Shown here one piece after another: positions 5,846-58,035 of a stretch of 64,000 nt of DNA. The notes under the pieces are model-generated. The model saw nothing but the letters and a program-made list of their open reading frames with translations, did no database searches and was not told the origin of the DNA. The stretch's first letter is position 1. Each line of letters begins with the position of its first letter. Both the position numbers and the translations under genes were made by a program. Source of the DNA: Microglena sp. YARC (lineage: Eukaryota > Chlorophyta > Chlorophyceae > Chlamydomonadales > Chlamydomonadaceae); the NCBI GenBank assembly GCA_022414725.1, contig CM039463.1:28902751-28966750 (forward strand), in the 5' to 3' direction.

Positions 5846-6999
5846 CGTCAGCCTTGAAGCGGCTCATCTGTTCCCAAACACTAGATGCGTCCAAGGCTTC
5901 GCAGTTTGAGCATGCCATCAAGCATGCCTATTGGTACGAGCTCTTTCTGGAATACTTGCCTGTGTGGGGCTTTGTGGGTGAGATGCGCCACGACAGTGTT
6001 GGAGACGTCGCGTACATCTACACACACAAGACCTTCGATCTCTCCTACAACGGAGACAAGGTAGGACCACAACAGGCTGTGTGGCCACTGTCTGTTATTG
6101 GGCTGCGTGTAGCAGCAGGCTTGTGGCCCCTGTCTGTTATTGGGCTGCGTGTAGCAGCAGGCTGTGTGGCCCCTGTCTGTTATTGGGCTGCGTGTAGCAG
6201 CAGGCTGTGTGGCCCCTGTCTGTTATTTGGCTGCGTGTAGCAGCAGGCTGTGTGGCCCCTGTCTGTTATTGGGCTGCGTGTAGCAGCAGGCTGTGTGGCC
6301 ACTGTCTGTTATTTGGCTGCGTGTAGCAGCAGGCTGTGTGGCCACTGTCTCTTATTGGGCTGCGTGTAGCAGCAGGCTGTGTGGCCACTTCGTCTTTTGG
6401 GGGCTATGTGTGGCAGCTTCTGTGCAGCTTCTCTTTGAATACACCATATAAATCTGGTAGCTCTTAGTAAAGGTAAAAAATAAGTTACCTGGGGTCACCG
6501 CAGATGGCACACTCTTTAAAAGAGTGGATATGTGTGGCAGCTTCATGGCAGCTTCTTTCCCTTGTACTTGAGTGTGAGCTTTAAGCCAGCTAGCTACTGC
6601 GTCTGGACGCTGACATGGCAGTCATTCCAATGCAGCTGTAAGCTTGGGGCTTGACCCAGTGGCTGGCTAATTGAACTGGACGGAAGCTGCTAAGCGTAGC
6701 CCAAAAATAAACAGTATCTGTGACGTAGGAACCATGACTTGTGCATCAATAACAGGGTGCTCAGGTGCTGCGGACTGACTGTCAGACCCCTAGAAAGATA
6801 ACGTGAGTGTGACATAGGAAAAACGGTGTGTGTGACGTAGGAACCATGACATGTGAATCAATGGCACATTGCTCAGGTGCTGCGGACTGACTGTCTGACC
6901 CCTGGCCCAAAGCCTACATGTTTCGTGGTGTTTTTAAGTCCCCCTTGAGTCTGTCAGGCCCGTGCGCATTTGGAACCCAGGAGGGCACCAGGGAAAATG

Positions 7000-7049
<50 letters not shown>

Positions 7050-7068
7050 GTCATCATCGTCATCATCG

Positions 7069-7135
<67 letters not shown>

Positions 7136-10100
7136 ATCTCTCATGCTGGCATGACATGATGGCATAGGAATATATATGGTTGTCAAGTATGATATTGTAT
7201 AGATATATCGTATGATAAATTGTACAATATACCAATGATACATTGGTATATAGATAGATAAATAGATAGATAGATAGATAGATAGGTCAATGATATAGCG
7301 ACGATATTATATGATCAATCGTACAATATCGTACGATATATCAATGTATCGTATAACATATGGTAGGGGCAGCGCGTCGCACTGGGGTAGCACCAAGTCG
7401 CTCATTTGCAGCGTTTCGCACAAAATACAGCGATCTTCCAGAATTGCAACCACATCATCCCAGTCAAGCTATCCTTGCCAGATGTCTTAAATAATCCCAA
7501 TCAGTGTATACTTACCCAGATCACCCAGATCCCTCAGATCATCCCAATCAGTGTATCCTTACCCAGATCACCCAGATCCCTCAGATCATCCCAATCAGTG
7601 TGTCCTTACCAAGATCACCCAGATCACCCAGATCATCTAGATCACCCAGATCCCTCAGATCATCCCAATCAGTGTTACCTTACCCAGATCACCCAGATCA
7701 CCCAGATCCCTAAGATTATGCCAATCAGTGTATCCTTACCCAGATCACCCTGATCCCTCAGAGCATCCTGATATATCATCCCATCCTCACCCCTATGGAG
7801 ATCATCCAAGTTTACTTGATCTCAGATAACCAACCAACACTACCCAACCCAACCCAACACTACCCAACCCAACCCACCCCTGCCCTACCCACCCCAACCC
7901 TATGCAGATCATCCAAGTCAACTTGACCTCAGACAACCAACCCAACCCAATACTACCCACCCCACCCCACCCCTACCCACCCCAACCCTACCCACCCCAA
8001 CCCTATGCAGATCATCCAAGTCAACTTGACCTCAGACAACCAACCCAACACTACCCACCCCACCCCTATGCAGATCATCCAAGTCAACTTGACCTCAGAC
8101 AACCCAGTAGCCGTGGTAGATGGGGCTCAACTACAGTTCACATACTCAGTGAACTGGGTACCGTCCACCATTCCTTTCGCAAGGCGCTTTGATCGCTACT
8201 TAGATTACAATTTCTTTGAGCATAAGGTAGGTCCTAGCGTGGGTCCAGTGCACTCGTGAGAGGGGGTGGGGGGGTGGGGGGGTGGGGGGGTGGGGGGGTG
8301 GTGGGGGGGGGGGGGGGTCCAACCGGGTCAGGGGCGACCAAGGTGTGACCCAGGGCACAAATCACTCACCTGAGGGTTGCACTCGCGGTGACCAAGGGCC
8401 CATTTCGCCCTAATTTCACACACCTGAGGGTCGCACGGGGGTGCGACCGCAAGACACAATGTGCGACCGGTTGCGCACAAAACAATAATGTCGGTGTGGT
8501 GGGTCTATTAATAAGGCTGTTGTCTGCTGGTGAGCCAGTACCCTACGAATGCAGACAGCACAACCAGGCCTCACTGCTACGAGCACCTTGGGCGCATACC
8601 TGCTTTGTTCATTCTTCTCATTGAGCACAAGGTAGGTCCAAGCGTGGGTCCAGTGCACTCATGAGGGTGTGGTTACGATGGTAAAGATGGCGTACTTATA
8701 AAGCAGTACACTGGCGTGGGTCCAGTGTACTCATGAGGGGGGGGGGGGGGGGGGGGGGGGGGGTCCAACCGGATAGGGTGAGCCTATCTATAAAGCTGTT
8801 GTCTGCTGTTGAGCCGGTACGCTATGTTCGCAGACAGCACAACCAGGCCTCACTGCTACAAGCACCTTGGGCGCATACCTGCTTTGTTCATTCTGCTTGT
8901 TGCACTACCTTGTCTTGCTTGCAACCTGCTATCTAAATGTTTGGTGTAGTGGGTAGGAACATTACCAGTCTAGTCCAGGGTACTACTTCTTGCCAAATTG
9001 GTCAGCGCTTAAAGTGCACAAACGTCAAACTGGTCGACGCTTTTTAGTGCAAAAAGCGCAAAAACTGCGAGCTGTGCCCTCAGGGGGTTGAAAAACTATG
9101 CGAAACGCGCTGATGGGCTCAAAAAGGCAGCGCGGCACCGCGCTGCCGCGCGCGCTTAGTAGTACCCTGGTCTACTTTCACTCGAGCACCTCTTAGATTG
9201 CATCTTTGCATAGGCCTATGCATTTGCATTTGCATCCTGCAAGGAAAAGGAGCTGCCTTGAAGAAGCTAGCGCATAGCCCCCAAAAGAAAAAGTGAAGCA
9301 AGTTGACTTCATTTGACTCCTTAGCCTGGTGTTAGTGGTGGTGTGTTTTTGGTGGTTCTAGCGGTGGTGTGTATGTGGTGATGCTAGTGGTGGTATGTTA
9401 GTGGTGGTGCTAGTGGTGGAGTGTAGCATTAGATGTCTCCCTTATCCACGCCAGTCCATATGGGCAGGTACGGAGGGTAGTACTCAAGTGGGTGGATATA
9501 AAGAAAGAGTGGTAGTACGTACGATATCGTACTTGCTTCACTGTTTCTTTTTGGGGCTATGAGTAGCTCTCTTTCCCTGTCCTTAAGGATATTTTGAATC
9601 CTTGTTTTACTCGTTCGATGCAGCTAGTCTGGAGGGGACTCGCCCATCTGAACAAGTTTATAACATCGACTTGTGCCGCCCTCAATCAAAAATCTGAACC
9701 CATGCACCTTCCATATCATTGGTTTTCCATCCTCAACTCTTTTATCATGGTCATCTTTCTCACTGGCCTGGTTTAATACCTAAACAAGAAGGACTTGTAC
9801 CACCCTCCATCACGAATCTGAACCCATGCGCCCCAAACCCTAAACCCTAACACCCACCTTGAAGATCCGGTGGTCCATCTTCAACTCCTTCATCATGGTC
9901 ATCTTCCTCACTGGCCTGTTGAGCACCTAAACGACTTTTGCCACCCTCCATCACGAATCTGAACCATGAGCCCTAAACCCTAAACCCTGAACCCCACCTT
10001 GCAGATCCATTGGTTCTCCATCTTCAACTCCTTCATCATGGTCATCTTCCTCACTGGCGTGTTGAACACCTAAACAAGAAGGACTTGTGCCACCCTCCAT

Positions 10101-13074
10101 CACGAATCTGAACCATGAGCCCTAAAACCCTTAACCCTGAACCCCACCTTGCAGATCCATTGGTTCTCCATCTTCAACTCCTTCATCATGGTCATCTTCC
10201 TCACTGGCCTGGTTGCGATCATCCTAATGCGCACCTTGCGAAAAGACTACGCGCGCTACGCAAAGACAGAGGACGATCTGGAGAGCCTTGAGAGGGACTT
10301 GAGTGAGGAATCTGGGTGGAAGCTGGTGTATGGGGACGTCTTCCGACCGCCACAGCAACTTACCCTCCTTGCTGCCTGTGTGGGCACCGGCATCCAGCTA
10401 GCGCTGCTATGTCTGTTTGTTATTTTCTTCACCATTGCTGGAAGCTTCTTTGAAGAGAGGGGGACCATTCTGACCGCCTTCATCGTGTGTTATGCACTCA
10501 CCTCATTTGTAGGGGGCTACGTGTCAGGTGGGCCTTCATTGTGTGTTATGCACTCACCTCATTTGTAGGGGGCTACGTGTCAGGTGCGATGTGCAAGTTG
10601 GTTTGCTTTTTTGTTTGTTTTGAAAAAACCAGTTGAGAGGAACTGTGTGATTGGGTGATTGGGAGTACCGGTAGAGAGGAAAACAAATTGTGTGATTGGG
10701 TGATTAGGAATACCGGTAGCGAGGAAATTGTGTGATTGTGTGATAGAGAATACCGGTAGAGAGGAAAACAAATTGTGTGAATGTGTGATTGAGAATACCG
10801 GTAAAATAATTATAATATAGAGAAATTTTGCCATTCTTTGTGTTTATGTTTGGGAAGGGTGGGTGCCGCGCACTTAACTCATTTGTAGGGGGCTGCGAAT
10901 CAGATGCATAATACAGAACGCAGCTAGGGGAACAAATACCCAGCCCTGGTACTGCTTATGGAGTACAATTATGTCCTGAATTCACGTATTAACAGACTGC
11001 CTATATCGTGTTTTACTCACTTGCATCATTTGTATGGGACTATGCGTAGGCTTTGCCGTGTTTTACGCACTTGCATCACTTGTAGGGGGCTATGTCCAGG
11101 CTTTTTCGTGTTTTACGCACTCACATAACTCAAGCACCATATACATACATCACACACACCGACAGTATTACTCACCACACCACACCACACTACACCACAC
11201 TCACCAATCACACACCACACTCACACCACACTCACTCTCACTCACTCACACACCATACTCACATTAATCACAGACACACACACATACATCACTAACACAA
11301 CCACAGTTGGCTTTTACCCCCAAAACTGCTTACATGACTCATACCTCCCCCCCACCACCACCACCACACACACACACACACACCTCCACTCATACACCGC
11401 ACCTCCACACACCACACCACACCCCCAACACATCCACAGGTGGCTTCTACGCGCGCAACGATGGGCGCAACTGGATCCGCACAATGTTGGCCACTGCATG
11501 CCTCTTCCCTGGTGTGTGCACCACATACGCACCACACTCTCACACCACACCACACTTACACACCACAGGTGGCTTCTACGCGCGCAATGATGGGCGCAAC
11601 TGGATCCGCACAATGTTGGCCACTGCATGCCTCTTCCCTGGTGTGTGCTTCGGCATTGCCTTGCTGCTCAACACCATCGCCTTGTGTTACCACTCTCTGG
11701 CAGCGGTGCCCTTTGGCTACATCATGCTCGTCATATGTTTGTGGGGATTCATATCCTTCCCTCTGTGCCTCATCGGAACTGTGTTTGGGAGGAACTGGTG
11801 AGTGTAGGACACTGTTTCCTGTTTAGGCCATGCGTAGCAGCTTCTTTGCAGCTCTGTGCCTCATCAGTACTGTGTTTGTGAGGAACTGGTGAGTGCAGGA
11901 CACTGTTTCCTGTTTAGGCCATGCGTAGCAGCTTCTTTGCAGCTCTGTGCCTCATCGGTACTGTGTTTGGGAGGAACTGGTGAGTGCAGGACACTGTTTC
12001 CTGTTTAGGCCATGCGTAGCAGCTTCTTTGCAGCTCTGTGCCTCATCGGTACTGTGTTTGGGAGGAACTGGTGAGTGCAGGTCACTGTTCCCTGTTCAGG
12101 CCATGCGTAGCAGCTTCTTTGCAGCTCTGTGCCTCATCGGTACTGTGTTTGGGAGGAACTGGTGAGTGCAGGACACTGTTTCCTGTTAGGCCATGCGTAG
12201 CAGCTTCTTTGCAGCTCTGTGCCTCATCGGTACTGTGTTTGGGAGGAACTGGTGAGTGCAGGACACTGTTTCCTGTTTAGGCCATGCGTAGCAGCTTCTT
12301 TGCAGCTCTGTGCCTCATCGGTACTGTGTTTGGGCTTGCTTTGATCGCTACTGCGTCTGAGCTCGGACTACCCAGGCAAGAGCATATGCTTGGTAACTTT
12401 TATTGGTAACTTTTGTTTCCTTGTTAGCTAGGAGCAGCAGCTTCTAGACAGCTCCCCTGGCTTACTACCCAGGCAAACCTACAGCAATTTAGTGCATCTG
12501 GAAGCTGACAGAATCATCTTTCCAGAACTCTGACAACCTTGAGGCGTAACCTAGTGGTTGGCTCAGGGAGCTGCTTAGAAGTTATTGCTATGCTATCATA
12601 AAAAGACAAGCTATGCTATGCTATCAGAAAAAGACAAGCTATGCTATGCTATGCTGGGTAACCCAGCCGCTCCTGGTGGTCTACAACTGTTGGAAATTGA
12701 ACCTGAGCATTGTCATTCCTCCCAGGTACAAACCTGTGCTGGAAACTGTATTGTCAACTGGAAACTGTATTGTCAACTGGAACTTGTTGGAAACTGAACC
12801 TGAGCATTGTCATTCCTCCCAGGTACACTACTTCATATTCAAGACCAAGATGAGTGGATTCTTCCAGACATGCTTCTACTTCGGCTACACTTTGATGGGT
12901 TGCCTTGGCCTGACTCTAATGTAAGTCCCCCCCTCCACACACACACATACACACACACCCACACACACATACACACACATATACACACACCCACATACAC
13001 ACACATACACACACGCATACACACACAAGCCAACATACTCCCCCCCCCCACCCCCACCCCCACCACCACTACCA

Positions 13075-13109
<35 letters not shown>

Positions 13110-14217
13110 ATGAACTTGGGTACATGCGGGGTTGGTGGTTGCCCCTAGTGTTAGCAAAAAGACTGCCCCCATCAACAGAAGTAACCAGAACCTGATTGAT
13201 GGCTACACTTTGATGGGTTGCCTTGGCCTGACTCTAATGTAAGTCCCCCCCTCCACACACACACACACACACATAATGGACTTGGGTACATGCGGGGTTG
13301 GTGGTTGCCCCTAGTGTTAGCAAAAAGACTGTCCCCATCAACAGAAGTAACCAGAGCCTGATTGATGGCTACACTTTGATGGGTTGCCTTGGCCTGACTC
13401 TAATGTAAGTTCTGACAGCTACCAGACGAGTGAGTCGATTAAGCTTGTGGGCCTAGCTTCAGCTCTGCCTGCATGCCTATGTGCAACAAATGTGGACAAC
13501 ACACAAACAGCTCATCATATAGCAGTATCATGTATTCATGTTTCTCTACGACATTGTTCCGTTTATCATTTATTCACGTTCACTACAACATTGTTCCGTT
13601 TATCGCTGGATGGCGACCATGACCGGATCTAGCAGTAAGCTGAGACCGTAAAAACATGGGCACAAATGTGCCTCCCCCACCCCCACCCCCGCCCTAAACC
13701 CCTGTTCAGAAATATTTCATCTTTTTATGCGTGGTCAGTTTTGTCTTATGAACGGCACACACACTACAGCTGTTCCCCTCCCATTGGCCTTTCTTTAGAG
13801 GTCTGCTGAGAAAAATGAACCTAACACCCAACCAGCCTACCAACCGACCAACCAATTGCTGTGATGTGTTACAGGTGTGGAGCTGTAGGCTACATGGGAG
13901 CTGCCAAGTTTGTCCGGACCATTTATCATAACGTTAAGTGGGACAGTGGGACTAGTAACAGCATGGTAGCAATTCGGCAGATTATTCGGGTTTTGATATT
14001 CCGAAACAGGTCGTACTTGGTAGTTCGCACCTCTGATTTGGCTAAAAAATCGAGAATTCGGATCATCATGGGAGAATTGTCGAAATTTTGCCTGAAAAAG
14101 TCGAGGTACGGAGGATCACCTACGACTGTCGATTCCAAAACATCAGCTGAATTGCTATATTACTTCCAACTCCAAGTCCCCCCATGTGATACCCACAGAA
14201 ACCAGGGAGCACATTAA
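5846..14217 (+). CDS. TM9SF (nonaspanin) family gene, 5'-truncated and internally deleted
   Basis: Nonaspanins are Golgi/endosomal proteins with a lumenal N-terminal domain and nine membrane helices. Exons by GT-AG and phase: 5846-6060, 8074-8226, 10155-10527, 11569-11797, 12726-12920, 13875-14217 (about 501 aa). Exon 1 has the lumenal signature (LPVWGFVGE, then YNGDK). Exon 2 has VNLTSD and FTYSVNW. Exon 3 begins IHWFSIFNSF and carries helices 1-3. Exon 4 (GGFYARNDGRNW) carries helices 4-5. Exon 5 has FIFKTKMSGFFQTCFYFGYT, and exon 6 has CGAVGYMGAAKFVRTIYHNV, closing the last helix. Missing are all exons for the first ~150 residues and about 110 residues for helices 6-8. Joining exon 4 to the canonical 12823 acceptor shifts frame to a stop; the duplicated acceptor at 12726 keeps frame. 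The family's terminal K-x-D is internal (KWD), followed by about 78 extra residues. Resembles TM9SF1/3 types. Probably a pseudogene, or the assembly is incomplete here. Confidence 0.85.
6068..6395. repeat. 43-bp minisatellite after the first TM9SF donor
   Basis: Seven to eight units with the core GGCTGTGTGGCCCCTGTCTG followed by a TATTGGGCTGCGTGTAGCAG-like stretch. They start within 15 bp of the exon-1 donor (GTAGGACC). The unit end GTAGCAGCAGGCTGTG resembles the donor context GTAGGACCACAACAGGCTGTG, so the array may be seeded by the 5' splice site. Confidence 0.9.
6560..6715. mobile_element. Degenerate MITE-like remnant
   Basis: Contains the internal pieces of the hAT-type MITE family in order (GCTTTAAGCCAGCTAGC, CTGACATGGCAGTCATTCCA, TTGACCCAGTGGCTGGCT, GGAAGCTGCTAAGCGTAGCC) but with decayed ends. 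Family assignment is by resemblance to 22139-22341. Confidence 0.35.
6905..7000 (-). pseudogene. Diverged copy of an exon segment of the large minus-strand gene
   Basis: On the minus strand this reads Asp-run, then IFPGALLGSKCAR. It corresponds at DNA level to 51130-51225, where the large gene encodes DDDGFIFPGAPLDSKCVRG. Similarity continues downstream into the GLTESSGTYEH segment but in a shifted frame. It abuts the 135-bp CAT repeat, which equals an expansion of the three-Asp (GAT) run. It lies antisense inside a TM9SF intron. Confidence 0.6.
7001..7135. repeat. (CAT)n microsatellite
   Basis: About 45 CAT triplets with three CGT interruptions near the middle. Frames through it give poly-His, poly-Ser, poly-Ile, poly-Met or poly-Asp and are artefacts. 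Confidence 0.98.
7246..7290. repeat. GATA microsatellite in AT-rich palindromic DNA
   Basis: A TAGA/GATA run of about 10 units. It is flanked (7160-7360) by short palindromic stretches built on GATATATCG, GTACAATAT and TATCGTA. Confidence 0.85.
7497..7765. repeat. CCCAGATCA minisatellite
   Basis: About five ~47-bp units with the order CCAATCAGTGTATCCTTACC, CAGATCACCCAGATCCCTCA, GATCAT. Sub-repeats of CACCCAGAT vary in number between units. Confidence 0.9.
7790..8110 (+). repeat. Tandem copies of the TM9SF exon-2 acceptor
   Basis: The acceptor and exon start (CCTATGCAG, then ATCATCCAAGTCAACTTGAC) occur at about 7793 (degenerate, GGAG), 7899, 8003 and 8067. Only the last runs into the true exon. 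The copies at 8003 and 8067 share reading frame with no stop between them, so use of the earlier acceptor would simply lengthen the protein. Spacers are CCCAACCCTACC-type pyrimidine-rich repeats. Confidence 0.85.
8255..8320. repeat. Poly-G / GGGGGGGT tract
   Basis: Runs of six to twelve G separated by single T. A second pure G run of about 27 lies at 8737-8763, in a donor-containing duplicate. Both have G-quadruplex potential and are prone to assembly length error. Confidence 0.9.
8341..8480 (-). mobile_element. GCGACC-family dispersed repeat, copy 1
   Basis: Matches the reverse complement of 43471-43610 over about 140 bp. It includes the palindromic end (GTGCGACCGGTTGCGCAC here, GTGCGACCGGTCGCAC in the other copy) and two internal GCGACCCTCAGGT-like motifs. 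No coding capacity. Probably a small non-autonomous element. Confidence 0.6.
8600..8725 (+). repeat. Tandem copies of the TM9SF exon-2 donor
   Basis: The true junction is TTTGAGCATAAG|GTAGGTCC (8226/8227). A copy at about 8620 reads ATTGAGCACAAG|GTAGGTCC and is followed by the same GCGTGGGTCCAGTGCACTCA. A third, donor-less copy of that downstream part lies near 8710. Confidence 0.8.
9685..10230 (+). repeat. Four tandem copies of the TM9SF exon-3 acceptor with telomere-like motifs
   Basis: Units of about 130-145 bp hold an acceptor-like CACCTTGCAG, then ATCCATTGGTTCTCCATCTT and a further ~50 nt of exon 3, then GCCACCCTCCATCACGAATC and a CCCTAAACCCTAAACC run. Exon-start copies begin near 9705, 9868, 10005 and 10155. 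Only the last continues into helix-encoding sequence; earlier copies end after LTG(V/L). The CCCTAAA motifs at about 9835, 9971 and 10117 are part of the unit. Confidence 0.85.
10480..10590 (+). repeat. Duplicate of the TM9SF exon-3 end and donor
   Basis: The last ~50 nt of exon 3 plus donor occur twice: GTGTCAG|GTGGGCC (10527/10528) and GTGTCAG|GTGCGAT (about 10583). The first is chosen because reading to the second meets a stop. More degraded copies of CATTTGTAGGGGGCTACGTG lie near 10880, 11030 and 11080. Confidence 0.8.
10620..10805. repeat. ACCGGTAGAGAGGAAA minisatellite
   Basis: Four to five units of about 45 bp made of TACCGGTAGAGAGGAAAACA, then AATTGTGTGATTGGGTGATT. Intronic and non-coding. 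Confidence 0.85.
11140..11430. repeat. CACA/CACTCA-rich simple repeat
   Basis: Irregular CACACA, CACCACA and CACTCA repeats fill the intron ahead of the TM9SF exon-4 acceptors and form an extended pyrimidine-depleted, A/C-rich tract. Confidence 0.85.
11441..11530 (+). repeat. Decoy copy of the TM9SF exon-4 start
   Basis: CATCCACAG, then 82 nt almost identical to the true exon-4 start at 11569 (GGFYARNDGRNWIRTMLATA), ending at GGTGTGTGC and falling back into CACA-repeat. Its acceptor looks as good as the real one, and its last codons could act as a GTGTGT donor. Confidence 0.8.
11755..12335 (+). repeat. 91-bp minisatellite carrying the TM9SF exon-4 donor
   Basis: The true junction GGGAGGAACTG|GTGAGTG (11797/11798) is followed by about five further copies of exon end plus donor, spaced about 91 bp (near 11890, 11979, 12070, 12161, 12252). 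A final unit (about 12300) ends at GTGTTTGGG without a donor. Each unit holds about 38 nt of exon (CTCTGTGCCTCATCGGTACT and on), the donor, and about 50 nt of intron (GGACACTGTTTCCTG, GCCATGCGTAGCAGC). Tandem collapse or deletion here could explain the missing central exons. Confidence 0.9.
12418..12600. mobile_element. Degenerate hAT-type MITE
   Basis: Internal order matches the 203-bp family: GCAGCAGCTTCTAGACAGCT, CCAGGCAAACCTACAGCAAT, GAAGCTGACAGAATCATC, GTAACCTAGTGGTTGGCTC, GGGAGCTGCTTAGAAG. Terminal repeats are decayed and no target duplication is legible. Confidence 0.6.
12690..12835 (+). repeat. Duplicated TM9SF exon-5 acceptor
   Basis: GAACCTGAGCATTGTCATTC, then CTCCCAG|GTACA, occurs twice, giving acceptors before 12726 and 12823. 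The copies lie 97 nt apart. Their acceptor phases differ, yet the frame from 12726 runs open into the exon proper. The first copy is the only one compatible with the phase of the preceding exon. Confidence 0.8.
12880..13415 (+). repeat. Tandem copies of the TM9SF exon-5 end and donor
   Basis: GGCTACACTTTGATGGGTTG, then CCTTGGCCTGACTCTAAT|GTAAGT, occurs at 12880, 13201 and 13366. The first two are followed by CCCCCCCTCCACACACAC repeats and GACTTGGGTACATGCGGGG, the third by unique intron. Which donor is used cannot be told, since only the first is contiguous with the full exon. Confidence 0.85.
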
Positions 14218-14230
14218 GCGGATTGGACAG
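14165..14230. mobile_element. Dispersed repeat (CCAAGTCCCCC family), copy 1, overlapping the TM9SF 3' end
   Basis: TTCCAACTCCAAGTCCCCCC, then GATACCCACAGAAACCAGGG, matches 14805-14895 and the reverse complement of about 27905-28005. It supplies the last codons and the stop of the extended TM9SF frame. Confidence 0.6.
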
Positions 14231-26700: not shown

Positions 26701-26747
26701 GTTTTTTTCATTTGTACATTTCCCCTGTTAAACATAACTTAACTGCC

Positions 26748-27621: not shown

Positions 27622-27838
27622 CACAATTCATGCTTCATTCATAGCTTTTTTTTCAGCTTCTTGGCAGCTCCCCAAGCCAGCCGCTGGGTCAAGTCCCTAG
27701 TTGTCAACAGAACAGGGAATCTGGTTTGTTTCAGCTTCAAGGTGCACTAGGTTGCATCAGGTTTGGCTGACTAGCGAGTCAGGGGAGCTGCCTAGAAGCT
27801 GCTGCTCGTAGCTGAATAGAAAAGCTATGGAATTGTGT
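27622..27838. mobile_element. Older hAT-type MITE copy
   Basis: Same internal order as the 203-bp family, in the opposite orientation. Ends read CACAATTC ... CATAGCTTTT and AAAAGCTATGGAATTGTG, giving an extended inverted repeat with about 10 extra bases on the left. No clear 8-bp target duplication, consistent with age. Confidence 0.6.
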
Positions 27839-27904
27839 GAGATAGTGTGGTTCAAAACGTTTTTTAAACACAAACCAAATTCCACACAGTGTAACATAAT
27901 CTGG

Positions 27905-28245: not shown

Positions 28246-28450
28246 CGCTTCAGTGATATACATTAGTCTAGTGGTACACCAAATTGCTTAAACGAAGAAG
28301 GGTCGGGGTTCGTTTTCCCCTACAGTCGCCCTTGGCGTTGCAGGTCGCTGTCAACCGCGATGGTAGCTTGTCCACTTGAGGTGGTAGACCGTTCTCTGCC
28401 CGCGTACAACAGGTTCCCTTAACACCAGCCCCACCAGGCGTTCTCATTAC
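28246..28450 (+). mobile_element. tRNA-derived SINE, copy 2
   Basis: TTCAGTGATATACATTAGTC, then TAGTGGTACACC (A-box region, 28264-28278), a decayed B box GGTTCGTTTTC (about 28307), and the same body through GTTCCCTTAACACC and CCCACCAGGCGTT. Co-linear with 5380-5585 in inverse orientation. Confidence 0.75.
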
Positions 28451-42383: not shown

Positions 42384-42437
<54 letters not shown>

Positions 42438-44175: not shown

Positions 44176-44210
<35 letters not shown>

Positions 44211-47200: not shown

Positions 47201-50200
47201 CCTTTCGGTGGAAGGGGTGGACACAACACCAGATTCTTTAGCTTCTCTCTGAGTTGCAGGAGCGGACATCTGGCCAGATTCGCCAGCACCCCCCCGTGTT
47301 GAGGGGACAGACACCTCGCCAGAATCTTCTGCTACCCTCTCTGTTGATGGGGTAGACACAACACCAGATTCTTCATCGAGCGACTCCTTCGCTGGGTCAG
47401 ACACCTCACCATACTCATCACCTTCCCCCTGTGTTGAGGGGGCAGGCAGCTCACTAAGCTCCCCAGCCTCCTCAATCAACCTTCCAAGTTCAGGGGCAGA
47501 CAGTTGGAGTGAGTGGGTAGGCGGCAGAGTAGGTGACGCATCAGCCACTGCCATGCCTGCCGGTAATGCCATAGAAGAGTAAGGAGGGGCAGGGGCACCA
47601 GCATCATTTAGGGAGGGTGAAGAGCAACTCAGCTCCTTTGCTCGTATAGCAGCAGCTGCAATTGCTGCTAATGTTGATACAGTTGTTGCTGCTGCTGCTG
47701 CTGTTGGTCCTGTTGTATTAAAGTTCACAACACCTGGCTCGTCCCCTGGTGCTGCTGTTGCTGCTGGTCCTGTTGTTTTAAGGTTCCCAACACTTGGCTC
47801 GTCCCCTGTTGCTGCTGTTGCTGCTGCTGGTGTTGATGTAGTTGTCGCTGCTGCTGGTCCTGTTGTATTAAGGTTCCCAACACTTGGCTCGTCCCCTGTT
47901 GCTGCTGTTGCTGCTGTTGATGTAGTTGTCGCTGCTGCTGGTCCTGTAGTATTATAGTTCTTAACACTTTGCTCGTCCCCTGTTGCTGCTGTTGCTGCTG
48001 CTGGTGTTGATGTAGTTGTCGCTGCTGCTGCTGCTGTTGGTCCTGTTGTATGAAAGTTCCCAACACTTGGCTCGTCCCCTGGTATTGCTGTTAATGCGCC
48101 ATCGCTGGAAGAGGAACCTAGCTCCTGGACTTGTGCTGCAGCTGAAGAAACAGTTTGCACAACAGAGGGCTCATGAGCTGCTTCTCTTGCAACAGCTTCA
48201 CCAGAGGGGGCTAGATGTACACCAAGAGCGGTGGCGCAGGGCACTGAACCCAACCCACAGGGGTCTAGATGTACAGCAAGTACAGTGGCGCAGGGCACTG
48301 AACTCAGCCCACTTGCTGAGATGGCTTCTGTTTCGGCACCTGCTGCACAGCTTGTTTCAGCTTTATCAGAGGGCACCACATCCAGTCCCGTAGCTAAGAT
48401 GGCTTCTCTTGCAGAAGCTGGTGCACAGCTTGCATCAGCTTTATCAGAGGGCACTACACCCAGTCCCGTAGCTAAGATGGCTTCTCTTTCAGAAGCTGGT
48501 GCACAGCTTGTTCCGGCGCTTGGTTCTACGGAGCCCTCTGGACACGAAGCCACTGTTACCTCCACAGGCATCTCTGCTGGACCCATAGAAGGTGACACTA
48601 CTGCTTCCTCCGAAAGGCTGACTGCTATGCGCTTAGGGGGTGATACTGCTGTCCCTTCTGCAGGCAGCTCTGCTGAACCCATAGCAAGTGACAAGTGTGC
48701 TTCCTCTGAAGGGCTGACTGCTGAGTTTCTTGGGGATGACAAGGCCTGCACCTCCGCAGGCAGTTCTGCAAAAGCCAGAGGAGGTGACACTGCCGCTTCC
48801 TCCGAAAGGCTACATGCTGAGTGCTTAGGGAATGACACTGCTGTCCCTTCAGCCGTCAGCTCTGCTGAACTCTTACGAGGTGACACTTGTGTTTCCTCCG
48901 AAGGGCTGACTGCCGAGTTCCTGGGGGATGACAAGGCTTGCACATCCGCAGGCAGCTCTGCTGAACCCCTAGGAAGCGACAGTACTGCTTCCTCTGAAAG
49001 GATAACTGCTGAGCGCTTAGGGGATGACACTACTGTCCCTTCTGCAGGCAGCTCTGCTGAACCCATAGCAAGTGACATTTGTGTTTCCTCCGAAGGGCTG
49101 ACTGCGGAGTGCTTGGGGAATGACACTGCTGTCCCTTCTGGAGGCAGCTCTGCTGAACCCATAGGAGATGTCACTTGCGCTTCCTCCGAAGGGCTAACTG
49201 CTGAGTTCCTGGGGGATGACAAGGCTTGCACATCCACTGGCAGCACTGCTGAACAATTAGGAGTTGCCACTAGTGCTTCTTCTTCTATAGTCATCTCCAC
49301 TGGCGCCTCTGATGGCAACACCACAGGCACCGCTGATGGTTCCGCTTCTGGATCTTTGGGGGGCGAGCCAGCAGGACCCTCTGGAGGGGAGTAGATGGGC
49401 TCCAAGGGTGTTGAGGGGTTGGGCGCCTCGGGATTTAGCATGACAGGAGAGACTGAGCTCCTGGCAACCCTTTCACCATATACGCGCGCCACGTGTCGCT
49501 GGGAGACAGCATAAACCATGGAAGTAGTAGTTTGCACAACTGTGGTGGTGGTGGTTGTGGTCTTCAATACTCCACCACGAGCAGCAGCAGGAGAAGCACC
49601 ACCACCAGCGCGCTCAATGCTTGCGGATGGCCTGGCATCAGCAGCTGGCAGAGCGGGGGTCGCAGCTGAAGGTGCTGGTGTCCCGGAAGAGCTTGCTGAT
49701 GAAGGTGTTGAAGTAATGGCATAATGGAAGACACATTTTCTCTCGCAGCTGTTTGTCTGGCTCCTGGAGGGGTGCAGCGAGGCATTCTTGCTCCTGGGGG
49801 TGTGCAGCGAGGCATTCTCATTCTTGGAGGGGTGCAGCGAGGCGTGCTCAGTCCTGGGGGGGTGCAGCGAGGCATGTTCGCTCCTGGGGGGGGACAGCGT
49901 GGCATGCTCGAACGGACTGGCCTCCACATCTGCAGCTGCTATGGGAGTCGTAATTGGCATGGTGTCAGGCTGCAGGCATCCTGGTTTTTGCGATTGGCGT
50001 GGTGTCAAGGCTTTAGTGGCGGCGCTGAAATACGCCCCTCTAACGAGAGCTAGTCGCTCATCTATGTTGTCTCTCAGTTGCTGCCTAAACGCTGCCAGGT
50101 CCTCCTGTGTCAGAACATGCGTTGAACAGCCGCTTGCGGTGCTGCGGCGTGATTTGAAGGGAGTGGAGTAGCCAGAGGGGGTTTCCAGGGAGTGGCGGAA

Positions 50201-50736
50201 GGCTGCCACGCTCACATTGTCCAGGGTGGCAGCGTTGTGGTGTCTTGAGAAGCCCTCCTGTGGACAGGGACTGACCAACCTGGGAGGTGGTGATAAGGTG
50301 GGAGGTGGTGAGAAGGAGGGAGGTGGTGAGAAGGAGAAAGGTGGTGAGAAGGAGGGAGGTGGTGAGAAGGTGGGAGGTGGTGAGAAGGAGAAAGGTGGTG
50401 AGAAGGAGGGAGGTGGTGAGAAGGTGGGAGGTGGTGAGAAGGAGGGAGGTGGTGACAAGGAGGGAGGTGGTGAGAAGGAGGGAGGTGGTGAGAAGGTGGA
50501 AGACCATGGAAGTTGCCTTTGTTCGTTAATGAGTGTATGAAGAGATTGGATCAAGTATATTTTGATAACAATGCTTTGAATTTAACTGATTATGCTACTG
50601 CCGTCCCACCTTCTCACCATCCCCCAGGTTGGTCAGTCCGCTCCACATGAGGGCTTCTCAAGACACCGCAATGCTACCACCCTGGACGGCGAGCAGCCTT
50701 GATGGAGCCATGAAACCAAGCTCTAGTTACCCCCCC

Positions 50737-50772
<36 letters not shown>

Positions 50773-53700
50773 ATACCCCCTTAACACACACAAACCATAC
50801 CCCACACACACACCCCACACACACACGAGTTCAAGACCAACCTGGGAGTTGAGTCAGCGCTTTTGCTCCGTCGGCGAGCTACTTTGCCTGGACTGGGCCA
50901 AAAGGGGAGCGTATGAGGTTTGGACGCTTGTGGGGAAGACAAGGCTGAGGTCAGACTTCCTTCTGTCGGGGCTGGAGAGAAGCTGCCCAGCCTGGGGACC
51001 GTGGTATGGGCACTGCGAGAGGTGGAGATGTGACGTAGGCCATCAGGGACCTGACTGACATCCTCCAAACCCCTAGTACCTGAGGTCGTTGAAGAAGCTA
51101 ACCCGGCCTCCTTCGTAGCACTTCTCGTTTGGCACATAAATTTGTCTTGATGTTCATAAGTCCCGCTTGACTCCGTCAGGCCGCGGACACATTTGGAGTC
51201 TAGTGGGGCACCAGGAAAAATGAAACCATCATCATCAATATGCATACTTAAGTCTGGGAGAGTCGACGCTCGAAGAGATCCCAATGCCCCCTCTTCAGTC
51301 ACCTCCCCCACTGTTGGGGCTGTCGTGTCTAGACGTACAGCAAGAGCAGTGGCATTACTCATTCCCAGCACGCTGTCATCAACAGCTTGGGGCGAGCTGC
51401 TAAGGTTACAGCTGATGGATACACCAGGTACGGCTAGGGTGTCTGTGTCACTAGGGTCAAGTGCTCCTTGGGTGGAGCTGCTAGGGTCATGGCTGAGAAC
51501 TGGTGGGTCACGGCTGACGCGTTCGCCAGGTACTGATAGGGTGACTGTGTCACGAAGGTCAAGTGCTCCTTGGGTGGAGCTGCTAGGGTCACAACTGATG
51601 GATACTTTAGGTGCTGCTAGGGGGGATGTGCTGATAGGGTCACAGCTGATGGGTACACTAGGCGCTGCCAGGGTTGATGTGAGACTGGGGTCAAGGCTGA
51701 CGGGTTGGCCAGGTCCTGCTAGGGTGGATGTGTCACTAGGGTCAAGTGCTCGTTGGGTGGAGCTGCTAGGGTCCCGGCTAATGGATACACTAGGTGCTGC
51801 TAGAGTGGAGTTACCACTGTTGTCTATTTCTGCGTGGGTGCTGCTGCGTGGGTAACAGCTGAGGGAAACACCAGGTGCTGCTAGGGTGGATGAGTCACTA
51901 GGGTCAAGGCAGACGGGTCTGCTGGGTCCTGTTAGGGTGGTTGCCTGTTCTGCATCGCCAGGGGCACAGCTCAGGGAATCATCAAGGGTTGTTAGGGTGG
52001 GCACCTTTGAAGGGTCACTAGGGTCAAGGCTGATGGGTTGGCCAGGTCCTGCTAGGGCTGATGCCTGTGCTGCACCACTTGTGGCGCGGCTGAGGGGAGC
52101 ATCAGGTGTTGCAACGGTGGCTGCATTTGATGCGTGACTAGGGTCAAGGCTGAAGGGCACATCAGGAGCTTCTTGAGCTGATGCCGGAGTGGTGAAACCG
52201 CATACAGTGGCGCTCGTTTCTTCAACTTCGACAGATGATCGCATAACCAGATAAGATGGATGGGCTGGCAAGCTCACATCACCCAGTTTGGATGGATGGG
52301 CTGATGAGCCCACATCACCTAGGTTGGATGTATGGACTGGTAAGCTCATATCACTGGCCTGGGTTGACATGATTTCATTCTGGGTCTTGCCAAAGGTGGG
52401 CAAGTTGCTAGCTACATGATCACTACCCACGGAGCTCATCTCACCCAGAGTCGAAGGTGCTTGGATCTTCAACTTAGACGGATGGACAGGTACGCTAACA
52501 TCGCTGACACGGGTTGGAGTGCCTTCATCCCTGGCCTTGTCAAAAGCGGACAACACGCTATTTACATGGTCACTACCGATGGAGCTCTTTTCGCTCAGGA
52601 GGGCTGCCCCCCCCTGTTGGGTTGAGTTGCTGACGGGACTCCCTTGGGCAGGTCTGCTTAACGCTGAGATCAAGGCCGCAACGTGTTCGCTTCCCATGGC
52701 AGTGTTGCTGCCCTGCGCGCTCTCAGTTTTTTCCTTCTCAATCACCGCTGCTTTCACCGCCACCAGATCCGGACTTGACTTAACGCTGTGCTCATGGCTC
52801 AGGCTGGTTGATTGCTTGCCCAGGTTAGAGATGACGCTGGAGACATGGGAATGGGAGGGCGGTGGGATGGACACGCTGCTGACCGGGCTTAACACGGAAG
52901 GACTGTTCAGACTCTTGACCAAGCTAGCAACACGTCCAGTGCCTTGGCCATCTATGCTGCTCCGGGTACTGTTCCATGAAGAGGCCCTGCCAGTGCTGCT
53001 CCTCTCTGACGCCCCTCCGGTGCTGTCTCTTCCTGAAACCCAAGCCCTGTCTATGCTGCTCCTCACTGGCGCCCCTCCGGCGCTGTTTCTTGCTGAACCC
53101 CCACCCCTGTCCATGCTGTTATGAACTGACGCCCCTCCGGCGCTGTTTCTTGCTGAAACCCAACCCCTGTTCATGTCGCTCTGCACTGACGCCCCGCCAG
53201 CGCAATTTCCTGCTGAAACCCCACCCGTGTCCATGCTGCTCTGCACCAACGCCCCGCCTGTGCAATTTTTTGCTGGAACCCCACCCATGTCCATGCTGCT
53301 ATGCATTGACGCCACACCAGAGCAATTTCTTGCTGGAACTCCACCCATGTCCATGCTGCTATGCATTGACGCCACACCAGGGTTGCTTTTTGCTGAAACC
53401 CCAACGGTGATGCTGCTGTGACCTGGGTTCACATCTTGCGCTTTTTCATGTGAGGGAGTGGTAGGGAGAGGTATTTGCCCTACGCTCCCTGCCACTTGTT
53501 CATTACCAAGCCCTCCAGAGCTGGATGAGCCAAGCAGCTCAAATTCTGAACTGCCCTGGGTCAGTGCACGTGGGTTGCATGCGTCTGCATGCGGGCCTGG
53601 AGGATCATCATGCAGTGTGACGAGTGAATCCGTCTCTGTGCGGCTTCGCTTGTGAACAGGGGAGAAGTTGGATGTGGAAAGGTATTCAGACGCCTTTCTC

Positions 53701-56700
53701 AGGCGGTCTACATGGAGGCGGCCTGTCTTCTCCGCAGGTTCCTGAACCTCATTGTCCTCATGCCCAACTGCACCAGCTGCGAGCTGAGCGTCACCAGCGG
53801 GAGCAGCGAGTCCAGCTACACCGGAGTCAGCAGAGACAGCAGTGTCACCAGTGACATCAGCAGGACCAGTTACACCGGAGTCTGCAGCAATACCGGTGTC
53901 ACCATCGTTAGCAGTAGGACCAGCTACACCAGGGTCAGCAGGGTCTGCAGCAAGTCCAGCAACGCCGGAGTCAGCAAAGACGACAGTGCCACCAGTGACA
54001 GCAGCACGTCCAGCTCCACCAGAGTCAGTACCAATACCAGTGTTGCCATTGTTGGTAGCAGGACCAGCAACATCTGTATCAGCAGCAATACCAGTGTTAC
54101 CAGCATCTGTAGCAAGTCCAGAAACACCAGGGTAAGCTGAGACGACAGCGTCACCAGTGACAGCAACACGACCAGACACACCAGAGTCAGCTGGGTCAGC
54201 AGCAAGACCAGGTACACCACAGCCTGCAGCAAGTCCAGCAACACCAGGGTCAGCAGAGACAGCAGTGTCAGCATTGTTGGCAGTAGGACCAGCCACGCCA
54301 CAATCTGCTGCAAGACCAACAACTACAGAGTCAATAGAGACGGCAGAATCAGCAGGGCTAGCAGCAAGACCAGCAACACTTGAGTCAGCAGGGTCGGCAG
54401 CAAGACCAGCTACGCCAGAGTCAGCAGCAGCAGCAGCAGCAGAGTCAGCAGGGCCGGCAGCAAGTCCAGGTACAGTAGAGTCAGCAAAGACGGCAGAATC
54501 AGCAGGGCTGGCAGCAAGACCAGCAGCAATTGAGTCAGCAGGGTAGGCAGCCAGTCCAGCTACACCGGAGTCAGCAGCAGCAGCAGAGTCAGCAGGGCCA
54601 GCAGCGAGTCCAAGTACAGCAGAGGCAGCAGAGACGGCAGAATTAGCTGTCACAAATGCCTCGTCTTTCAAGCTCTCTCTTAGAGAGAGGTGGTGCGCAC
54701 CGGACATCCACCTGTTGACACTGCCCATCAGGACGTTGTCGTGCGCAGAAGGTCTGGCAATGCCTTGCTCTGCTTGTGGAGGCAGCAGGCCCACGACCAC
54801 TGAGGGGGGCTCTGGAACCATCAGGTCGCCGTCGTGCACAGAGGGTCCGGCATGGCCGTGCTGTGCTTGTGGATACAGCGTGGTCTGGTTGTGCCCAGCA
54901 GGTCCAACTGCCAACGCTGGTGCCCCTGTTGCTGCTGCGGACTCTGGTGTACCTGGTCCAGCAGTGCCTTGCTGTGCTTGTGGGTGCAGCGCAGTCTGGT
55001 TGCGCCCAGCTGGTCCAACTGCCAACGCTGGTGACCCTGTTGCTGCTGCGGACTCTGGTGTAGCTGGTCCTGCTGCTGGATGCAGAAGGCCAATGACCAC
55101 TGAGGGGGGCTCCAAAAACCAGTCACCTAAGTCACTGCCTGTAGCGCCAAGTGAGGGCAGACCGCCAGAGCTCCATAGGCCGCCTTCCGAGATCTGACTG
55201 ATGTTGAGCCTGTTTGGCAGGGGTTTGGGCGTGTTGTCTCGGACTACTGCTGCAGCCATGGAGGCAAGGTCCTCATTCTCTAGAATTGTATAAGACATGT
55301 TCTTGCTTAATGCAGCCATGCCTTGAGATAGTCCTATGGAGCCAGCCCTTGGAGATTCAATAAAGCGCACTGCTTGATCGACGAAACCCAAATCCTGATG
55401 GCCTGAACCCACGGACTCTAGAGTGGCACGACAAGCTGTTGGTGTATCTCCACCATTAGCCAATACGAGAGGGGAGTCAGATAAAGGGAGCTTTGAATGG
55501 GTAACTTCACCATCCTCTGCTTTGAGGTGCTTGTACCGCCGATTCTCGTCCAGAATCGGAGCCGGGTGGAGCTCTGTCACCATTTTTCCCGATGTTGCTG
55601 CTGACAGCTTCCTCTCGAAGGAGGGAATAGATCGCCTGCCTTGGGGAGTGACCTGCTGAGCAGGCTGGGCCGAGCTGCGTTGGGGAGTGATCTTATCTGA
55701 GCTGAGCTGAGCTACCTTGGGAAGTGACCTGAGCTGAGCAGGCGGATGGAAAGAAGGGATTCTAGAGGCTGAAACACGGCCACCTGAAATAGTATGCTGA
55801 GGGTTGGGCTTCGCAATCTTGCAGCTCTTGCTAGGTGATTGTGTCAAGCTTCCGGATGAATTGACTCCACCTTTGTGAGGGGATATCTCGACTAGAGTTT
55901 GCGGTAGACTGGAGGAGACACTTTTGCCCAGGCTAGACTGTACAAAGGGTCCATTTCGTGAGTTGCGCAGAGAATTTGAAGGCGAGCTTGGGACAGACCT
56001 GCAGCAGGAATGTATGTATACATGTTGGGTGCTGGCTCAACAGTCATGCGTGAGTTATGTCAAGGAGAGCTCGGCGTCAAGAGGGTCCCCTTAACACCAC
56101 GCCCCTACAGGCGTTGTCTTTTTCTTTCAAAGAGAGCTTGAGACAGACCTGCAGCAGGAATGTGTGTATACATGTTGGGTGCTGGCTCAACAGTCATGCG
56201 TGAGATATTTGAAGGAGAGCTTAGGGCAGACCAGCAGCAGAAAAATGATGAATCATGCATGTTGGGTACTTGTTGACAGGAATGCGTGAGTGAAGGCATT
56301 TAAGCTGGTGAATAATACAGCATACTGAAGACTGATGATCCAGTCTTGCAAAATATGTGCACCGAATCAAGACAAACAGTTTGCATGCAAAATGTTGTGG
56401 AGAATCTAGAGGTAACGGGGGCACATAAATGTAGGAACAGGGATATGATTTAATATGATGCCGGCAGTCTGACTAGGCCAAAGTTACCATTTACATACAA
56501 TTTCATACGATACAATTTGTATGATATCATATGATATGCCGGTCCCTACATGTATGACAAAGCATACTCTCTTGGTACCCATGCAGATAGCTCCTTAATA
56601 TTTTGGTCGCAGACGCAGCTTCAGTGGGTTGGCTGCGTTGCAGGACGCAGGCTATGGGTTGGTTATGGGTTAGTTGCGGGTTGGTTACATCTCAGGACGC

Positions 56701-57688
56701 AGGCTATGCTGGTTAGGTTGCGTCTACGGATGCAGACTATGAAATTAGTTGCGTCTCAGGATGCAGGCTCTAAAATTTGTTGCGTCTCAGGCTGGGGGTC
56801 CTCCTGGACAACCCTGGTGACGTTGAGTCAGATAGCTCCTTGATATTTATAAATGGGCAATGCGGAGTTTGGACTAACAAGGAGGAAGTCCCACGTGGGT
56901 ACAAATTTAATGCTGCAGATCGAAACACACGCCTTGTGCCTACTAGATTGTACATTTACTTGAATTCGCCTCCTCGAACGACCGCATCCAAGCACACACC
57001 CGCACCTCGGGAAAGTCCATGTTAGCGTGTCTTGTTACCCCCTGAATAATGCCATTCCTGACAGTCATACGTGATACATGATACATGCTGTTATCATCAC
57101 ACTTAGTGGTTTTCATCTTACCTACGGGCACTAGCTTCTAGGTAGCTCCTCTTCCTAGCTATTCAGCCTAACCCAAAGAGGGCTAGTGCACCTAAAAGCC
57201 AGCATAAACGCTTTTCTAGAACGGCTGAAATTTTGGGGCTTTGCTCAATGGTTAACTTGGGGAGCTACCTAGAAGCTGCTGCTTGTAGCTGGAAAGAAAA
57301 ACACTGATCACACTCTTACCTTGAGGGAGTACCCTTGCCATTGGTGTGGGTGACCCTCCCAACAGAGCTTCGCTGGTAAGAGGGGCTTGAAGGAGGTTCC
57401 TTTTGCGGCATTGCTGCAACTACAGCTGCATCCTCACTTGCAACAACTGCTGCGTGTGGGACGCGGCTGGAGATGGTCCCACTTCCTCGCCAAGGTGGGA
57501 GTGGTTTGGGAACACCACCAGGGTCCATTGGACTTCTTGGGCAGGGCTTGGGCTCTGGCTGATCAAACTGCATGATCAGTGACTTCACCATGGAATGCCT
57601 GTCAGAAGCTCCGGCGGCTTGGTCCTTCTGCTTTCGATTTGAAGTACCCATGTCAGCACTTCGGCTGACATCGCGCGGAATCATTGTC
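40915..57688 (-). CDS. Giant Ser/Ala/Pro-rich repeat protein, 3' end not established
   Basis: Four exons on the minus strand, all phase-matched: 57688-57320 (ATG at 57684, possibly not the true start), 55998-50842, 50279-45100, 41416-40915; at least 3,734 aa. Junctions: TCAAG|GTAAGA to CTGCAG|GTC; CTCCCAG|GTTGGT to CTCCCAG|GTTGGT; ACCAG|GTGATG to GATGAAG|GCT; then CCATG|GTGAGT into the 73-bp satellite. No enzyme domain is recognised. Exon 2 has AGLAADPADSGVAG-like repeats, ~21-residue SSMDMGGVPAKNC repeats and LDPSDTSTLAAPG repeats. Exon 3 has SAELPAEGTAVS-type repeats, 17-residue (S/A)TERVAEDSGEVSVP repeats, SKEAEFPMPTPAADTS repeats and DLEPELTAGGLGTPA repeats. A KRVTF motif (codons at 45523-45509) fits the PP1-docking RVxF consensus. 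Mostly disordered by composition. The SPPP-rich stretch just upstream of exon 3 is treated as intron. Function unknown. Confidence 0.65.
41417..42170. repeat. CAACAGCATAAAT degenerate repeats before the 41416 acceptor
   Basis: A block TTGGAGC(C/A)TTCATCATGGA, CAACA recurs at about 41410 and 41490 (and GGACAACAACATAGATTT at 41425 and 41732). It is followed by units of ATCAACAGCATAAATGTAGT. On the minus strand these copies include the acceptor context TCCATGATGAAG|GCTCC. Confidence 0.7.
42284..42380 (-). mobile_element. ATCATATGAT/GCCGGC small repeat, copy 1
   Basis: Matches the reverse complement of 56465-56545: GCCGGC near one end, TTAGCCTAGCCAGGCC next to it, and GATATCATA at the other. A partial direct copy (ACTTAGCCTAGCCAGGCCGC, CGGCATCATATGATACA) lies at 42469-42506, beyond the poly-G run. 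Confidence 0.55.
42380..42437. repeat. (TG)n then poly-G run
   Basis: About nine TG units, then a G run of about 39-40. It separates two partial copies of the small repeat above. True length is uncertain, since homopolymers this long are often misassembled. Confidence 0.95.
42545..42660. repeat. Short inverted-repeat segment, GTGCGACCAGTCGCA
   Basis: Opens with GTGCGACCAGTCGCAAATCA and closes with GGCGACTTGTCGTTGAC. Resembles the ends of the GCGACC family but is otherwise different, so it is possibly a relative. Confidence 0.35.
43471..43610 (+). mobile_element. GCGACC-family dispersed repeat, copy 2
   Basis: Begins TTGTGCGACCGGTCGCACAT, with two GCGACCCTCAGGT motifs, and ends GTGCCACGGGTCCCACCT. 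Inverted relative to 8341-8480. Confidence 0.6.
44178..44208. repeat. Poly-C run
   Basis: About 31 C. A second run of about 20 C lies at 44396-44415. Both follow a shared context ending in GCATG(C/T)TTT(T/C), so the two segments may be related copies. Confidence 0.9.
50282..50500. repeat. GAGGTGGTGAGAAGG minisatellite
   Basis: About 15 units on the plus strand of GGAGGTGGTGAGAAGG with AAAGG variants. On the minus strand it is an extended pyrimidine tract, and each CACCTCCC resembles the acceptor end. Read as protein it gives SFSPPP repeats. Confidence 0.9.
50622..50685 (+). repeat. Inverted copy of the exon-3 start
   Basis: ATCCCCCAGGTTGGTCAGTC, then GAGGGCTTCTCAAGACACCG and ACCACCCTGGAC on the plus strand equals the minus-strand start of exon 3 (50279-50217). 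Transcript from this locus could fold into a hairpin across the acceptor. Confidence 0.8.
55998..56260 (-). repeat. Tandem copies of the exon-2 acceptor of the large gene
   Basis: On the minus strand TTCCTGCTGCAG|GTCTGTCCCAAGC (true, exon base 55998) recurs near 56148 as TTCCTGCTGCAG|GTCTGTCTC and near 56232 as CTGCTG|GTCTGCCCTAAG. The shared downstream text includes GGGTGCTGGCTCAACAGTCA on the plus strand. Confidence 0.8.
56083..56124 (+). mobile_element. SINE tail fragment
   Basis: GGTCCCCTTAACACCACGCC, then CCTACAGGCGTTGTCTTTTT. Equals the last ~40 bp of the two fuller SINE copies. 5' truncation is typical of SINE insertions. Confidence 0.6.
56465..56545 (+). mobile_element. ATCATATGAT/GCCGGC small repeat, copy 2
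   Basis: AATATGATGCCGGCAGTCTG, then ACTAGGCCAAAGTTACCATT through TTTGTATGATATCATATGAT. Inverse of 42284-42380. Confidence 0.55.
57104..57306. mobile_element. hAT-type MITE with perfect 8-bp target duplication
   Basis: 203 bp, the same length as 22139-22341. Ends are TAGTGGTTTTC and GAAAAACACTG, with GCTTCTAGGTAGCTCC and GGAGCTACCTAGAAGC inside the terminal repeats. It is flanked on both sides by ATCACACT (57096-57103 and 57307-57314). On the large gene's strand it sits five bases into the intron after exon 1, leaving GTAAG of the donor and supplying the rest through the target duplication. Confidence 0.9.
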
Positions 57689-57699
57689 CTAGAATACAG

Positions 57700-58035
57700 A
57701 TTGAGGGGAGGAAATGAGAGGAGGGGGATAGGCAGATTGAGGGAGAGGGGAAAGAGGGGGAGGGACATGAGAGAAAGGGGGGGATAGGTAGATTGAGGGG
57801 AGGAAAAGGGGGAGGGGGGGGGGGGGGGGGGCGGCATGAGAGAAAGGGGAGGATAGAACAGATTGAGGAGGAAAGAGGGGGGGGGGGGGGGGGGGGGGGC
57901 ATGACAGAAAAGGGGGGATCGGCATATTAAGGGGAGGAAAGAGGGGGGAGGACATGAGAGGGAGGGGGGATCGGCAGATTAAGGGAGGAAAGAGGGGGGA
58001 GGACATGAGAGGGGGGGGGATCGGCAGATGAGGGG
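57700..58035. repeat. GGGAGGAAAG/G-run minisatellite
   Basis: Units of about 40-60 bp with GGCAGATTGAGGGGAGGAAA, GAGGGGG and GACATGAGAGAAAGGGGG, with G runs up to about 20. On the minus strand it forms a pyrimidine tract leading to TCTGTATTCTAG|GAC, the acceptor of the first recognised exon, and the units repeat its CCTCAATCTG context. Confidence 0.85.

Follow-up and report, generated by a model that had tools for sequence, protein, structure and literature searches.

Tandem repeats at or across the edges of introns have been described in several settings, and five reports (PMC4974935, PMC3296678, PMC3887541, PMC2891723, and PMC5954066) in the portions drawn on here cover between them a repeat trend in algae, intron gain in potato and Drosophila, and a human variable number tandem repeat (VNTR). 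In Chlamydomonas and Volvox, tandem-repeat density is highest in introns and next highest in coding sequence (CDS), and the same genome-wide study reported that tandem repeats become more frequent toward the ends of introns, above all in two green algae (PMC3887541). The potato RdRp gene carries a tandem duplicate that crosses an intron-exon boundary, with a new intron that is backed by transcripts and by relatives (PMC4974935), and intron gain in Drosophila has been ascribed to tandem duplication of sequence containing splice signals (PMC2891723). Intron 18 of human ABCA7 holds a VNTR with a 25-bp unit whose first two bases are the exon 18 donor; its alleles comprise some 12 to 427 units and reach 10,678 bp in length, and the cDNA reveals canonical splicing together with use of the donor of the next copy, which retains 25 bp and is out of frame (PMC5954066). 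Here we describe copies of splice junctions inside the introns of a 64,000-nucleotide stretch of the green alga Microglena sp. YARC (contig CM039463.1, positions 28,902,751 to 28,966,750 of the forward strand; hereafter the window), which carries a TM9SF (EMP70) gene, a kinase gene, and a third gene on the minus strand. We put at about two in three the probability that these copies stem from a general process of short tandem duplication across genes, on which reading frame and splicing act as filters, and that they are tolerated rather than the product of a special route to making introns.

We located exon edges from homology and reading frame, separately from the repeats. In the TM9SF gene (+ strand), the first four exons found (5846-6060, 8074-8226, 10155-10527, and 11569-11797) join over 322 codons without a stop, and the concatenated exons match Pfam EMP70 (PF02990) with an E value of 4e-101 over profile positions 49-391 of 517. 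The penultimate exon found (12823-12920) and the last recognized exon (13875-13942) match the C terminus of a plant TM9SF sequence used as a probe, with E values of 2e-10 and 4e-5, respectively. The four kinase exons found (19252-19476, 20582-20653, 21727-21860, and 22558-22788; gene span 19252-22788, + strand) match Pkinase with an E value of 9e-23. A Pfam search of the third gene, its two long open reading frames (ORFs; 1859 and 1751 aa) included, gave no match, and its exon at 57320-57684 (− strand) joins in frame with the ORF that runs down from 55998. The junctions at 11798, 12823, and 22789 are supported from one side only, the partner exon not having been found.

We then scanned every intron with the 24-base sequence around each homology-placed junction (17 in all), and the matches were checked by eye. 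At least one copy spanning the junction is present in the intron for nine of the 17, comprising eight of the ten TM9SF junctions and one of the seven in the kinase gene. We counted 19 clear copies, 18 of which keep the GT or AG intact, and these carry between 5 and 80 exon bases. The counted copies match their junction at 16-24 of the 24 positions, vs 12-14 for the best match at the eight junctions without a copy, which include the donor of the first TM9SF exon found (6061). Four further rows (7688, 7614, 7567, and 7454; 16-17 of 24) were read as belonging to another array and left out of the count for the acceptor at 8074. Not all of the copies form arrays, some being duplications of two copies or spaced copies (8632 and 22862).

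The copied TM9SF acceptors are those at 8074, 10155, 11569, and 12823. An array at 7791-8104 copies the first of these with about 31 exon bases (copies at 8011, 7908, and 7801), and a 150-bp repeat present 3.4 times at 9705-10211 copies the second with ∼57 exon bases (copies at 10005, 9865, and 9715, with the AG lost in 9715). The acceptor at 11569 is copied at 11440, with ∼80 exon bases, by a 129-bp duplication spanning 11405-11648, and an older second copy lies at 11307; the copy of 12823, at 12726, has five exon bases only. Four TM9SF donors are also copied. That at 8227 recurs at 8632 with 14 exon bases (8615-8660), and that at 10528 recurs at 10584 in a 56-bp duplication (10476-10586), with older degenerate pieces of the same region near 10908, 11040, and 11100; both of the pieces that align across the junction (near 10908 and 11100) have lost the GT. 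The donor at 11798 is copied at 11889, 11980, 12071, 12162, and 12252 by a 91-bp repeat present 6.3 times (11761-12334), its unit being made up of the last 37 exon bases, the donor, and the first 54 intron bases, which end in TTTGCAG. With both TTTGCAG and GTGAGT, an inner unit of this array resembles a mini-exon, to judge from its sequence. Finally, a 166-bp duplication at 13088-13410 contains two copies (13239 and 13405) of the donor at 12921. All of these features lie on the plus strand.

Outside TM9SF, the kinase donor at 22789 is copied at 22862 (34 of 38 bases identical by pairwise alignment), and in the third gene the acceptor at 55998 has upstream copies (55998-56260, − strand), one at 56148, 150 bp upstream, with 71 of 76 bases identical and the AG intact, and a degenerate one near 56230 in which the AG is lost. 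A 40-bp array present 11.1 times at 20138-20581 (+ strand) ends exactly at the kinase acceptor 20582 and repeats CTACAG; we rejected it as a junction copy because it covers the intron side only and no exon bases repeat. A preliminary description of the window had listed 12 places at which repeats copy an exon edge with its splice site, and ten of them hold up, the others being this kinase array (listed as 20140-20581) and a satellite (30205-40940) for which the exon is unproven. Its extension of the pattern to all three genes is borne out by TM9SF and by the third-gene acceptor and is weak for the kinase, and its observation that many duplicated splice sites remain agrees with our count of intact copies.

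To compare junctions with intron interiors, we compared each intron with itself by BLAST, low-complexity sequence being masked, and counted a junction as spanned when at least six bases on either side were included. By this measure, seven of 17 junctions were spanned vs 6.9 expected from an intron-interior coverage of 0.43 (p = 0.58), an expectation that applies to the BLAST count (7-8 of 17) and not to the nine of 17 from the eye-checked scan. Across six settings, 7-8 junctions were spanned vs 6.5-7.1 expected; at its cut-offs, the test fails to pick up the copy of the kinase donor at 22862 that pairwise alignment detects. Circular shifts within introns gave a similar picture, with seven of 16 edges spanned vs a null value of 6.9 (p = 0.50), and for the kinase alone none of six vs 2.5 expected (p = 0.155). 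Duplications were mildly in excess in the outer 100 nt of introns, with a coverage there of 0.56 vs 0.44 (p = 0.15). Given that the number of spanned junctions matches the expectation from the interior, duplication in this window does not single out the splice junction, and a preference of duplication for the junction itself is not supported here, at the low power of the sample.

Where duplication does concentrate is in the genes. Local direct duplications cover 0.46 of sequence over eight introns (range 0.11 to 0.68) vs 0.04 in 15 independent non-genic segments (range 0 to 0.28; Mann-Whitney p = 7e-5, 8 vs 15), the non-genic set including repeats that resemble transposons, a piece paralogous to the kinase, and 41500-45000, which may be an intron of the third gene. 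Three unclassed stretches (22.8-26, 29.8-41.5, and 56-58.2 kb) were left out of this comparison, and Markov-shuffled sequence had zero coverage in 60 shuffles. On these data, local duplications make up a large part of the introns in the window. The two long ORFs of the third gene (45002-50581, 1859 aa, and 50781-56036, 1751 aa; both − strand) are also rich in tandem repeats, about half of their length being covered by diverged copies (mean 0.48 of 15 tiles, range 0 to 0.82). Their arrays have periods divisible by 3 in nine of ten cases and eight of nine, respectively, or 17 of 19 together, vs eight of 29 in intron regions (Fisher p = 3e-5); elsewhere in the window the count is 12 of 24. This contrast between ORFs and introns suggests that one process is seen through two filters, the frame in coding sequence and splicing in introns. 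In the TM9SF exons, where the search reached 150 nt into the exon from each tested intron, the duplicated bases are all continuous with a junction. The window shows the pattern known from green algae, with tandem repeats denser in genes, in both introns and CDS, than in the sequence between them.

These results bear directly on junction-directed intron growth, that is, on duplication that starts preferentially at AG|GT or at splice junctions and so lengthens or creates introns. Such growth could account for the eight copied junctions in TM9SF, for the higher coverage at intron ends, for the acceptor-like TTTGCAG that accompanies the donor in the 91-bp unit at 11761-12334, and for the published excess of tandem repeats toward intron ends in green algae, so far as the sections of that study used here describe it (PMC3887541). 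However, junctions show no excess over the intron interior, only one of the seven kinase junctions is copied, and long coding ORFs hold the same type of array, and we regard this explanation as unlikely. Of what the preliminary description had proposed, growth of introns by repeats stands in that the introns are rich in duplications, with no support here for a preference for the junction; an enrichment of repeats at junctions is not supported at the scale of the window, and neither is intron birth shown, the repeats seen being inside introns already equipped with both splice sites.

In the reading that we favor, short-range tandem duplication with units of mostly tens to ∼170 bp would act in exons and introns alike, probably by slippage or template switching at the DNA level. 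Selection would remove most duplications inside conserved exons, frame-preserving duplications would be kept in a tolerant repetitive protein, and most intronic duplications, edge-crossing ones included, would pass. When a duplication extends from exon into intron, the first copy would retain the exon, the donor, and the frame, and in the mirror case the last copy would retain the acceptor. The exon-adjacent site would then always be the first copy for a donor and the last for an acceptor, with the inner copies inside the intron. An edge-crossing duplication would be tolerable because the outermost copy leaves exon, splice site, and frame untouched; with nothing to repair, such events would meet no more resistance from selection than duplications confined to the intron, provided that the exon-adjacent site wins. 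The spliceosome would be expected to use mostly that site, with misuse mostly yielding stop codons, and the inner copies would presumably be neutral.

The likely cost of using an inner site can be read from the frame. In TM9SF, 14 of the 16 inner sites tested introduce a stop, the two that do not being 8011 (+63 nt) and 11440 (+129 nt), and a further site at 12726 was checked for length only; the inner copy at 56148 in the third gene also introduces a stop. In TM9SF, the reading frame favors the exon-adjacent sites. The copies are of various ages, with identities to the original of about 70% to 100%. Recent inner sites have not been purged, and the oldest copies (9715, near 10908, 11100, and 56230) have lost the site. 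Kinase exon 4 and the sequence flanking it have an inverted, partial paralogue (1183-1986, − strand, ∼92% identical) that shares the duplicated donor, its donor copy having an 8-base gap; in the one haplotype available, the repeats past the donor differ in length between the two paralogues. As the duplicated donor is common to both, the duplication probably predates their split, and together with the range of identities this points to a process that is both old and continuing. The 3′ portion of the kinase, together with the flank downstream of it, is present twice over ∼3 kb (1183-4213 and 22182-26192), one part being inverted; with 85-93% identity in the main pieces, this is a rearranged local duplication.

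A different view would be that a large part of the pattern is an artefact, TM9SF being in decay or misassembled and its junction duplications having no functional meaning. Two portions of the protein had no significant match within the window when the plant sequence was used as the probe, namely ∼105 residues expected between 11797 and 12823 (best E value, 0.26) and ∼80 N-terminal residues (best E value, 0.55). The C-terminal frame moreover stays open for ∼90 codons beyond the point where TM9SF would be expected to end, and an 8-bp direct repeat (AGTGGGAC) lies there (13920-13965). The gene may therefore be damaged, or the assembly may have collapsed. Against this, exons 1-4 remain open throughout with their strong EMP70 match, the copies differ by point changes, unlike an assembly echo, and the same pattern is found in the third gene and once in the kinase. 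The clean state of exons 1-4 indicates that the duplications probably arose while TM9SF worked, and we hold the artefact to be a little less probable again than directed growth. No solved structure matched TM9SF at an E value of 0.001, and in viral contigs none of 17 pattern matches to TM9SF was confirmed as a relative, a mobile-element motif likewise finding no match there.

The largest array in the window is a 73-bp satellite at 30314-40938 (− strand), which wrap-around alignment to the whole unit resolves into 143 full units. Its unit consists of ∼20 bases of the end of the adjoining ORF (stop at 40911) followed by GTGAGT, which is intact in 137 of the 143 units, the GT being kept in 142. 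No known homologue of the adjoining exon was found, and the exon is unproven; on sequence grounds, TGG-TGA in the unit could equally be read as a stop codon instead of a donor. The GTGAGT hexamer has two rare variants in its six columns vs 12 expected (Poisson p = 0.0005), and two of 68 six-column windows are as low; for the GT pair alone, constraint is not significant (p = 0.09). The one shared change within the hexamer gives GTAAGT, also a good donor, in four units. The stretch of the satellite with the fewest rare variants is that around GGTGAGT.

We take this retention of the donor hexamer as a hint and not a strong one. It seems very unlikely that inner splice-site copies are other than inert, in the sense that arrays in very long introns would be kept as platforms for U1 binding or as donors open to use, and that genes here would tolerate or even use many identical sites, the choice between which would rest on exon context and transcription order. 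Least probable of all is a function of the inner copies themselves, as donor arrays that bind U1 in long introns against premature polyadenylation or as alternative sites, since the scarcity of rare variants in GTGAGT and the change to GTAAGT that would favor it are met by an unproven exon, by array homogenization that can yield the same pattern, by the nonsignificant result for GT alone, and by older decoys elsewhere that have lost their site.

Several points nevertheless weigh against a general, tolerated duplication process. Among the stretches left out of the coverage comparison are repeat-rich tiles (0.53 at 23401 and 0.51 at 29251), and the low coverage of non-genic sequence could reflect young transposons and not a genic bias. 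TM9SF taken alone leans toward its junctions, with seven of ten spanned vs 4.5 expected, which is not significant (p = 0.125), and by deciles intron coverage falls from 0.56 to 0.16 and rises again to 0.55, so that the ends exceed the middle, though for the outer 100 nt p is only 0.15. The sample is one window with three genes and 17 junctions, in which a moderate junction preference would escape. The loss of the site in the oldest copies also fits selection against such sites, and the donor columns of the satellite are less variable than the rest, a difference not predicted by pure neutrality.

The window contains other repeats as well. A dispersed family of ∼100-200 bp, found in introns and elsewhere (22142-22343, 27654-27823, 12416-12581, 57107-57308, 1825-1986, and 3695-3837), has ends that appear inverted by eye (GCAGCTTCTAGGCAGCTCCC-like) and is possibly a miniature inverted-repeat transposon. 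A second dispersed repeat of ∼200 bp occurs in opposite orientations at 5379-5582 and 28249-28450, with 85% identity; it is possibly a short interspersed nuclear element and has by eye a tRNA-like stretch (GGTCTACCACTAGACCA), in which ARAGORN found no tRNA. Scans with Rfam at gathering thresholds and for tRNA genes were both empty.

Near-identical copies of an intact splice site that differ mainly in position and in the neighboring exon amount to a natural experiment in spliceosomal site choice. TM9SF offers eight copied junctions within one gene, including two inner sites that would give open, in-frame products. The same copies carry a warning for annotation, as gene models in such genomes may snap to the wrong copy.

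Set beside the systems described at the outset, the algal repeat trend, duplication-derived introns, and a donor VNTR are all known, and in the parts of the literature covered by our searches we found no comparable density of junction copies in one gene. The window agrees with Chlamydomonas and Volvox both in the density of tandem repeats in introns and CDS and in the trend toward intron ends; that study dealt with units of 1-50 bp, and, in the portion of it used here, repeats that copy a junction were not its question (PMC3887541). The 129-bp duplication at 11405-11648 has the same anatomy as the tandem duplicate in potato RdRp as that article presents it in the part drawn on; there, however, a new intron resulted, whereas here there are only repeats within introns (PMC4974935). 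With ABCA7, to the extent of the passages used, the window shares a tandem repeat that sits at an exon edge and whose unit contains the splice site. The human case, however, is a single locus with a unit that starts at the GT, whereas here several junctions of TM9SF are involved and the units take in 5-80 bases of the exon.

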